Origin: Anaerolineae bacterium
GTDB lineage: Bacteria; Chloroflexota; Anaerolineae; JAFGEY01
Direction of reading: 5' to 3'
Assembly (NCBI GenBank): GCA_016783145.1
Contig: JADHXD010000003.1
Coordinates: 1-64,000 of the forward strand
Length of the DNA stretch: 64,000 nt
Part shown: positions 31,533 through 33,823 of the stretch, piece after piece
Layout: the number at the start of each line of letters is the position of its first letter
How positions within the stretch are numbered: position 1 is the stretch's first letter
Notes under the pieces: generated by a model
Told to the model about the DNA's origin: nothing
Database searches by the model: none
The model's input: the letters and a program-made list of their open reading frames with translations, nothing else
Made by a program: the position numbers and the translations under genes

Positions 31533-33475
31533 GATAGCCCCCAATATCCCGGTGCTGCTTGCTCTCCCATTTGATGTCGCAAACTGGTGAGCAGGACATC
31601 GACCTCCTGGCTTTCCTGCACGACCTCGGGGAAAGCGCCGCTCGCAAACCGATACTGCTGCCCTTCTTTGAGCAAGATGCTGTACAGCCGAAGCCCGGCA
31701 ATGGCCGCTTCCAGAGCTTCCTGGGGCACCGCGAACCCGTGTTGGGTCAATTCCTCCTGGATGTCGCCAAAGGATACCTTTTCCCTGTCAGCGATCAGCA
31801 GCGTGATCACTTGCTCGAGAGCGCTGGTGTTCCCCCACGTGACCTCCAAAAAGTACTCGTGGAAACTGCTCGAATGGCGTACTTTATTCAGGTCAGCCGG
31901 GGTGATCTGCCGCGTGTGCCGCGCATTGGCCTCCAGGATGAGCTGCTGGCACAGGTACTGAACGAGGTTCGGATGGCACGAAGAGAGGTTGATGATCTCG
32001 TAAACGACCTCTTCCTGATCCTGGATGGAAACGCCCATCGCTTGCATGGGTTCAAGGATGATCCGCCTGGCGGCGTGTTCCCTGAGATAGCCCAGGTGGA
32101 TGACGTCACAGAAGTTGAACAGGGGCGAATGAGCTGCGTGTAGCTGGTTGTGCAGCACCCGCTCTCCGCAGAAAACAAACCGGCAGTGTCGCTCCTGAGA
32201 CATGGCGCGAAACAGGCCGAACAACGTCCCATCTCCATGCTCCAGGTCGTAGCTCAACAGGGCATCCACTTCGTCCAGGAGAACGACGACGGGCTCGTCT
32301 GCATTCTCCTCCCTCTGGTAGACGACGTAGCGGCGAAAGTCCTCAGCCGAACGGATCAGCGGATGCACTCTCCAGATCGTGGTCGCCGCCTCAAAGAACG
32401 CCTCCGGGGTTTTCACCGACTGGCAGTCCAGGTAGAGAATGCTGCTGCGGGCTACGCTCTCTGACAACAGGCGGTATACCTTGGCCAGGATCGAGGTCTT
32501 GCCGATCTTGCGCCCGCCGATGAGGGCGAAACTGGTGTCATTGATCTTGCGAGTGATGGTCTTGAGCTCGTGGTCTCGGCCAAAGAACATGTTTGCGGGG
32601 ACGGGACCGGATGTGACGTAGGGAGAGACGACGGTCAGGTCCACCTGCTGCAGCACGATCTCGACCAGCCGTTTGCCTGGATCCCTCGCGATGATGATCT
32701 GTCGCAGATCGTTCCCATTCAGAACGATAAAGTCGTGGATCGTGTCGCGCACGAGGTTCTTGAGGTTCTTGCGCGGGTCGAGGTGAACCGCAAAGTCGTT
32801 GAGATCGATGATCAGCGCAAAATAGCTGGTCATCGAGAGGATGCTCATCAGGCTGTGCAGATCGGTCAGGTCTTCTGGAGAACCTTCGTGGCGCCGCACA
32901 AAGACAACGGGGAAACGAGGAGGCACTTTGAGACGCAGCGCTGGGGCCCGGACGACGAATCCGTGCAAGCGACGGTACGTGCGCTGCTCTTCGGGTACGT
33001 GGACGAACCCCAGGATGTCAAAGAGTTGGGTGGCGATATTCGAAACGACGCTGTGGAAATTCTCTTCGGCATCGACCAGTTCCCACGCTGCCTTCCAACT
33101 GTGAAGGAAGGTCTTCATACGCAGGCGGTTCACCAACTCGATGCGCGGCAGGCTGTCGTAGAAGACGAGCGCGTCCTCGGGGTGCTCTTCGACGTACCTG
33201 CGCATGGTCGCCACCCACAGAGGCGGCGGAACGGAGGACAGGAAATACTCGTCCACCCACCCGTGCTGCATCAGCGCGTTGCGGATGCTCGTCTCCCAGG
33301 CCGGCCATCTATCCTCGGCCGAAGAAGCGGCGAGGTTTGAAACCGGGCCCGCCCCTGCTCGGCCCTTTGCACCAGACCTTCGCCTGCCGATCACGATCCA
33401 CGCGATCGCCGCGACCGCGATGGCAACAGCGCCAATGACGCCCCAAAGCCCTCGTTCGTTCAATGCCCCCCCCAA
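31529..33475 (-). CDS. Membrane-anchored STAND-like P-loop ATPase
   Basis: N-terminal TM 'WGVIGAVAIAVAAIAWIVIG', 'FFGRDHELKTITRKINDTSFALIGGRKIGKTSILAKVYRLL', 'VVVLLDEVDALL'; TTG start at 33475 preceded by AGGAGG. Confidence 0.8.
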   Translation of the reverse strand: MGGALNERGLWGVIGAVAIAVAAIAWIVIGRRRSGAKGRAGAGPVSNLAASSAEDRWPAWETSIRNALMQHGWVDEYFLSSVPPPLWVATMRRYVEEHPEDALVFYDSLPRIELVNRLRMKTFLHSWKAAWELVDAEENFHSVVSNIATQLFDILGFVHVPEEQRTYRRLHGFVVRAPALRLKVPPRFPVVFVRRHEGSPEDLTDLHSLMSILSMTSYFALIIDLNDFAVHLDPRKNLKNLVRDTIHDFIVLNGNDLRQIIIARDPGKRLVEIVLQQVDLTVVSPYVTSGPVPANMFFGRDHELKTITRKINDTSFALIGGRKIGKTSILAKVYRLLSESVARSSILYLDCQSVKTPEAFFEAATTIWRVHPLIRSAEDFRRYVVYQREENADEPVVVLLDEVDALLSYDLEHGDGTLFGLFRAMSQERHCRFVFCGERVLHNQLHAAHSPLFNFCDVIHLGYLREHAARRIILEPMQAMGVSIQDQEEVVYEIINLSSCHPNLVQYLCQQLILEANARHTRQITPADLNKVRHSSSFHEYFLEVTWGNTSALEQVITLLIADREKVSFGDIQEELTQHGFAVPQEALEAAIAGLRLYSILLKEGQQYRFASGAFPEVVQESQEVDVLLTSLRHQMGEQAAPGYWGLS

Positions 33476-33591: not shown

Positions 33592-33620
33592 TTGACAAAA
33601 TCCGCGTTATGAGGGATAAT
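33592..33620 (+). promoter_or_regulatory. Sigma70 promoter of an orphan small transcription unit
   Basis: TTGACA-17-GATAAT. Confidence 0.75.
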
Positions 33621-33698
33621 GAATCCGAGTGTGCATCATCATTTCATTTTATGTAGCGTGCACACCGTCGCTATCTTTTTATATAGGAGGTGATGCGC

Positions 33699-33752
33699 AT
33701 GGATGGTAGTTACTCTAGGTACACGGTCCGGCATCACCTCCGGGTGAATTAG
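33699..33752 (+). CDS. 17-aa mini-ORF MDGSYSRYTVRHHLRVN
   Basis: ATG 8 nt after AGGAGG; lies inside the small transcription unit. Confidence 0.45.
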   Translation: MDGSYSRYTVRHHLRVN

Positions 33753-33767
33753 CCGGACCGGCCAAAA

Positions 33768-33797
33768 GCAGCGCACCCTTCGGGGTGCGCTGCCCTT
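33768..33797. terminator. Bidirectional terminator with UUCG tetraloop
   Basis: gcagcgcaccc-ttcg-gggtgcgctgc, followed by cctttt (+) and by tttt on the minus strand; placed between convergent units. Confidence 0.85.
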
Positions 33798-33823
33798 TTA
33801 TCCCCCTGTACGACGCCTGACCT

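Follow-up and report, generated by a model that had tools for sequence, protein, structure and literature searches.

A stand-alone RNA gene with a self-masked micro-ORF, conserved across much of Chloroflexota, as a candidate translation-gated switch

What kind of gene is a short stretch of DNA that carries a promoter, a near-perfect Shine-Dalgarno sequence (SD), an open reading frame of 17 codons and a terminator, and that holds within the frame a strand complementary to its own SD? The question is raised by a locus in the stretch of 64,000 nucleotides analysed here (hereafter the window), which lies between a convergent gene for a GAF/PAS histidine kinase on one side and, on the other, a divergent pair on the minus strand, namely a STAND-like AAA gene and, after it, one with a CHAT domain. 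All parts that a first-pass annotation had claimed for positions 33592-33800 are present, at the places it gave or within 1-2 nt of them (Table 1). The complementarity between gcatcacctcc (33731-33741) and GGAGGTGATGC (33686-33696) is perfect; the 5' arm of a second hairpin, which we refer to as S2, adjoins or overlaps this anti-SD, and the stop codon of the micro-ORF is found at the junction between the S2 loop and its 3' arm. The region 33625-33800 has a folding z of -5.7, and none of 200 shuffles was equally stable. Read from its sequence, the locus is an RNA gene of ~170 nt that stands alone, as an orphan unit with its own promoter and terminator.

Table 1. Parts of the element in the window (positions are those of the window).
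Feature	Position	Strand	Basis
-35 box TTGACA	33592-33597	+	sequence; equivalent promoter in most members
-10 box GATAAT, spacer 17 nt	33615-33620	+	sequence and promoter scan over the family
5' leader hairpin gtgtgca/tgcacac (arms 33629-33635 and 33659-33665)	33629-33665	+	sequence; family support weak
Upstream block CGCTATCTT, consensus YGCYATCCT, probable upstream anti-SD	33669-33677	+	family pairing counts
Shine-Dalgarno AGGAGGTGATGC, predicted to be masked by the anti-SD	33685-33696	+	near-invariant; helix pairing in 96 sequences
Micro-ORF MDGSYSRYTVRHHLRVN, 17 codons (ATG at 33699, stop TAG at 33750-33752)	33699-33752	+	frame statistics, 137 members
Anti-SD GCATCACCTCC within the micro-ORF	33731-33741	+	compensatory changes (GGAGGTGGTGC / GCACCGCCTCC etc.)
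S2 hairpin CGGTCCGGC/GCCGGACCG (core ggtccgg 33725-33731 / ccggacc 33753-33759; extended to 9 bp, 33724-33732 with 33752-33760)	33724-33760	+	pairing in 87 type A members, 25 distinct 5' arms
Intrinsic terminator, 11-bp stem (arms 33768-33778 / 33783-33793), TTCG loop, T-run (33796-33799)	33768-33799	+	sequence and fold; terminator-like site in 127 of 137 members

The seed for a family search came from direct DNA comparison with 60 relatives, the majority from other families of the same class, which yielded four elements with an identical order of parts. A covariance model (R1) of five sequences and 76 positions, with the SD:anti-SD pairs as its only structure, had matches at E<=0.5 in 197 of the 298 class genomes searched; in genomes outside the model, E-values went down to 1e-13. 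A second model (R2), built on 96 members, matched 111 of 150 Anaerolineae genomes at E<=0.01, almost always in single copy (second matches mostly represent the opposite strand of the one site, which is partly palindromic); the window's own genome holds one copy. The covariance search that the first-pass annotation had proposed places the element in most Anaerolineae, and the conservation of complementarity and hairpins in homologous loci, on which that annotation had staked its reading beforehand, was borne out. Across the phylum, R2 matched 115 of 400 Chloroflexota genomes, several other classes among them. Carriers in Anaerolineae are found in Anaerolineales, Caldilineaceae, Ardenticatenaceae and Thermoflexus, those in Chloroflexia in Herpetosiphonaceae, Chloroflexaceae and Chloroheliaceae. 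Among the control groups, R2 matched 3 of 120 Bacillota genomes (none below E=1e-3, i.e. at chance level) and 3 of 79 genomes of Bdellovibrionia, one of these three being the Bdellovibrionales MAG described at the end; calibration of both models was short, so that their E-values are rough and the argument is carried by the contrast between groups. At curated thresholds Rfam 15 had no match anywhere in the window, nor did any match within the element rise above chance, and over 17 divergent member loci it matched only tRNA and tmRNA genes. To the alignment the class set contributes 99 loci and the element of the window, and the phylum set another 37, which gives 137 members; these are kin, so that all counts below are of non-independent events. 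This comparison of sequences securely defines an RNA family conserved across much of Chloroflexota.

Several groups of matches were set aside. Three loci of the phylum search (L310, L313, L317) were dropped as likely chance matches in coding sequence, and the pattern-scan matches in Thiobacillus, Hydrogenophilales, Bordetella and similar taxa represent a single repeated coding sequence, likewise by chance. Five loci from Tsukamurella (L151, L157, L163, L196, L207) resemble a genus-restricted leader upstream of a gene and have no terminator; their mini-ORF (MPDDSRSRSLG..RIT), which comes with the SD GGAGGTGATG and with GCATCACC, bears a superficial likeness to the element and is apparently unrelated, and DNA search in relatives yielded no other convincing match. 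In one Bacillota genome, two equal-scoring weak matches ~3 kb apart (L341 and L344; G805:C23:29566-29647 and 32647-32728) possibly belong to a repeated cassette.

The signals that delimit the unit in the window recur in the family. In most members the best sigma-70 site is typically TTGACA-17-TGnnATAAT, i.e. it has an extended -10 box, and in the promoter scan the position of this box clusters ~45-75 nt upstream of the SD; a terminator-like hairpin with a T-run is present in 127 of the 137 members. The RNA gene is probably strongly transcribed. Its 5' leaders tend to carry a hairpin of variable sequence (mean -7.3 kcal/mol, compared to -5.7 when shuffled) and contain a conserved block, YGCYATCCT, which can pair with AGGA-GGUG if one A is bulged (in the window CGCTATCTT with AGGAGGTG). 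All eight of eight possible pairs between block and SD are formed in 43% of the members and in 7% of shuffled leaders, and at least seven in 79% and 41%, respectively; the GCYAUCC block is hence a probable upstream anti-SD. A second -10 box would be an apt interpretation of this block in some members, though not in those of Chloroflexia, and we kept it as a leader element. A second anti-SD of the leader type, present in the window and a few members, does not exceed shuffled expectation family-wide. The SD itself (AGGAGGUGRUG) is near-invariant among members, and the perfect AGGAGGUGAU recurs.

Two helices are built around this SD. The first, S1, pairs it with the anti-SD: 99.9% of the cells are paired in 96 sequences, A-U is replaced by G-C with changes on both sides in nine cells and by G-U in six, and the count of both-side changes and the covariation score were reached by none of 500 shuffles; since the SD is also constrained by its pairing with 16S rRNA, few positions, mainly a single pair, carry this covariation. 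The combinations GGAGGTGGTGC / GCACCGCCTCC and GCACTGCCTCC were seen in several families (f4, f21, f35, f45). The earlier proposal of a self-sequestered SD around the mini-ORF thus finds its counterpart in a helix that is conserved and covaries across the family. The second helix, S2, has a 5' arm that borders or overlaps the anti-SD and a 3' arm that starts at or just past the stop codon. In type A (87 members), 99.6% of its eight pairs are standard compared to 75% with partners shuffled, a percentage inflated by the choice of arms per sequence as the best stem; GC, CG, AT and TA all occur at several positions, with 25 distinct 5' arms. When arm choice is controlled for, the S2 stem score has a median of 11.8 as opposed to 6.4 on shuffled tails, and 96 of the 137 members score above every shuffled-tail control. 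In type B (32 members; e.g. GGGCATCACC...GGTGATGCCC) the anti-SD reads CACCGGA or CACCGCU, without CUCC, and the SD-proximal letters recur in the 3' arm, which fully competes with S1. The overlap between S1 and S2 in type A amounts to a few bases only, and the two could possibly coexist there as a pseudoknot.

Nested folding predicts that the SD changes partners as the RNA grows. In the prefix, i.e. the RNA ending at the anti-SD, the probability of SD:anti-SD pairing is 0.89 in type A and 0.76 in type B, and in the full RNA it falls to 0.05 and 0.31, respectively, an exclusiveness that partly reflects the pseudoknot-free folding model. In the full RNA the SD turns to the leader, and its predicted accessibility is low (0.14-0.22). 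The two competing folds of the first-pass annotation are recovered in silico, with SD:anti-SD pairing dominant in the prefix and displaced once the hairpin is complete; its exclusive SD/anti-SD fold holds as a family-wide helix, but in the nested minimum-energy fold of the element in the window the partner of the SD is the 5' leader (gugugcaucauc) instead. In translational riboswitches and erm-type leaders, an anti-SD masks the SD, and an alternative hairpin can capture this anti-SD. The predicted alternation between a masked and a freed SD through competing helices is as in a translational riboswitch, and the element shares anti-SD masking and its capture by an alternative hairpin with SD-sequestering riboregulators in general. 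It differs from these in that the masked SD belongs to its own micro-ORF, that translation of this ORF crosses the anti-SD and that no ligand is known; in the leader of ~45 nt, no aptamer-like domain was seen and no Rfam match was obtained.

The micro-ORF itself comprises 13-22 codons (median 17 aa) in the 137 members, starts with ATG in 122 and GTG in 15, and ends with TAG in 87, TAA in 39 and TGA in 11. Its frame is kept: between the start codon and the last base of the anti-SD it is stop-free in 135 members, compared to 29 and 6 for the other two frames, and the first stop falls at most 20 nt past the anti-SD in 132 (9 and 2 in the others). The peptide is free to vary: the frame in which the anti-SD is read differs between members, all three being in use (78/39/20), nucleotide differences between similar members fall evenly on third, first and second codon positions (523/414/390), and synonymous changes make up just 21% of the codon changes; by these counts of codon positions and synonymous changes, no purifying selection on the peptide was seen. 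We infer that the passage and stopping of the ribosome are selected and the peptide product is not. The notion of an 'RNA that engages ribosomes', put forward in the first-pass annotation, holds to this extent, namely at the level of coding-frame conservation.

The reading that we favour, with somewhat better than even confidence, is that of a translation-gated regulatory RNA switch, encoded by a single-copy gene of ~170 nt and probably with an output in trans. In the nascent RNA the SD of the micro-ORF would be masked, first possibly by the upstream GCYAUCC block and then by the strong anti-SD near the 3' end of the micro-ORF, until S2, once transcribed, would border or capture the anti-SD and tip the balance away from the mask. 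A loaded ribosome would read through the anti-SD and S2 and halt in the S2 loop, and every round of translation would reset the fold. Because the usual footprint of a ribosome at UAG covers both the anti-SD and the 3' arm, translation would have to open the two of them; in the cell, the switch would be worked by ribosomes, which would move it between folds. As no neighbour is conserved and, in the window, the terminator shares no strand with the switch, the output would be expected in trans or as ribosome titration; one form of the RNA could pair with or bind something else, or the RNA could serve as a titrator or sensor of free ribosomes. We suggest tentatively, with a little less than even confidence, that the family is a phylum-wide housekeeping RNA acting in trans, whose throw-away micro-ORF senses the availability of ribosomes or the speed of decoding or termination.

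The codons that the ribosome would meet on this path could point to a different sensor. Within codons 2-9, AGU accounts for 18% of all codons, compared to 0.5% in long ORFs over the same stretch, and 133 of the 137 members have one AGY codon or more there; the prevailing stop is UAG, whereas long ORFs at these loci most often end in TGA (TGA/TAG/TAA: 208/127/95). These figures would agree with a stand-alone attenuator-like sensor, in which a pause at rare AGU codons, caused by short Ser-tRNA(GCU) or slow decoding, sets the fold, and which acts in trans; rnTrpL/peTrpL, a leader-derived RNA and peptide that act in trans, provide a precedent (PMC7298713). We nevertheless regard such a sensor as unlikely: AGC shares its tRNA with AGU but shows a much weaker enrichment, UGU (another NGU codon) is enriched as well, so that a nucleotide motif may be behind the signal, the run spans just 1-3 codons, and no biosynthetic operon lies downstream. 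With leader-peptide attenuators proper the element has in common a short translated ORF with favoured codons (as frame statistics and AGU enrichment indicate), alternative hairpins, an intrinsic terminator and a released short RNA. It departs from them in having no regulated operon downstream and no regulated gene on the same strand, in an anti-SD that masks the ORF's own SD, in a terminator that shares no switch strand (in the window its stem, 33768-33793, lies outside these strands), and in a peptide and codon identity that are mostly unconserved.

Some further observations concern these codons. AGU and UGU are enriched 10- to 34-fold over codons 2-9 of the micro-ORF (33702-33725 in the window), and the AGU-derived UAGUAG blocks an alternative frame; the enrichment may represent a slow codon, a nucleotide motif or a frame guard. 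The UAG stop (33750-33752 in the window) is found in 64% of members and TGA in 8%, and 92% of the stops are readable by RF1. The preference for UAG is perhaps partly structural, because its G often begins the 3' arm of S2.

A trans-acting sRNA whose loop CACCUCC blocks the SD of many mRNAs, or mimics the 3' end of 16S rRNA, is in our view improbable. C-rich seed loops are known from Gram-positive sRNAs, and the anti-SD of type A is located in the S2 loop, but the anti-SD varies with the element's own SD (GCACCGCC, GCACUGCC) and has no CUCC in type B, which argues that the conserved partner is internal; moreover, the maintained reading frame would be left unexplained. For the same reasons, namely variation together with the element's own SD and the lack of CCUCC in type B, we do not retain the earlier interpretation of the anti-SD as a 16S mimic.

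We see even less room for an ordinary mRNA that encodes a functional micropeptide and whose output is limited by SD masking: start, frame and stop are kept in nearly all members, as such an mRNA would demand, but the peptides diverge freely by all three measures given above (codon positions, synonymous share and frame of the anti-SD). Dual-function sRNAs such as RNAIII and SgrS combine structure and an ORF in one short RNA. The element resembles them in this combination and in its own promoter and terminator, and differs from them in its unconserved peptide, which sets it apart from a class with a conserved functional one, in a far wider phylogenetic range and in having no known target. A type I toxin-antitoxin system was rejected as well, the peptides being short, polar and variable and unlike a hydrophobic toxin.

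Is the element, then, a regulator of its neighbours? In the window it overlaps the divergent promoter region, and the first-pass annotation had linked it to the STAND-CHAT operon. Over 99 loci, however, the next downstream ORF belongs to 60 distinct homology clusters and is convergent in 41. Neighbours that vary in this way identify the unit as an orphan, as that annotation had held, and make a role in cis on the STAND-CHAT operon unlikely, so that the link was abandoned. A cis-regulatory leader or divergent-promoter element is, in view of these neighbours and of the element's own promoter and terminator, very improbable, even though 14 members have the same type of gene downstream on the same strand. 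This gene, which from its sequence we take to be AIR-synthase/HypE-like, is the next one downstream in 14 Anaerolineae (L059, L071, L132 and others, cluster 1), and its presence may be due to lineage synteny or to a real link; a presumably HNH-like gene, named likewise from its sequence, is convergent in 11 loci. Finally, a chance arrangement of a strong ribosome-binding site and hairpins, each part of which is short, has a negligible probability given homologues with covariation in dozens of families.

Other known RNAs come close in single respects. Like tmRNA (RF00023), the element has a housekeeping-like single copy and a small ORF, but it has no tRNA-like domain; a substitute for tmRNA was rejected, as a separate normal tmRNA is present in 21 of 21 genomes tested and the element has no RF00023 match. 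In one genome the tmRNA gene (L304, 928-1301) lies ~1 kb from the element. In Downstream-peptide / Yfr6-type RNAs the conserved element is a structured 5' UTR (PMC2864571), and a short conserved coding sequence in a small transcript is common to both; by comparison, the structure described here is formed around the SD and the stop codon of the micro-ORF and has no Rfam match.

Our search of the open literature turned up no account of an RNA of this kind in Chloroflexota, most subscription papers having been outside its reach; novelty accordingly means absence from Rfam 15 and from the literature searched, and is no proof of absence elsewhere. The component tricks are known, and what would be new is their combination in a stand-alone, self-masked and peptide-indifferent micro-ORF RNA without a target in cis. 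A near-perfect SD, a kept frame, a free peptide and a single copy retained over much of a deep phylum point to ribosome passage itself as the signal. Known switches of such type control an adjacent gene, whereas the element has none, and it offers a test of whether a dummy ORF can serve a bacterium as a stand-alone gauge of its translational state. The RNA biology of Chloroflexota is almost unexplored, which makes the element a clear target there, and the covariance model provides a means of annotating the family.

Two genomes outside Chloroflexota carry similar arrangements. A Bdellovibrionales MAG (L325) has the complete arrangement, matched with an E-value of 5.5e-6. Another genome of Bdellovibrionia (L326) contains a similar SD, an ORF of 17 codons (MVNSNNCDITMAEVTAS) and a terminator; it appears to mask the start codon rather than the SD, and its peptide is similar to those of Chloroflexia (GITxEV).
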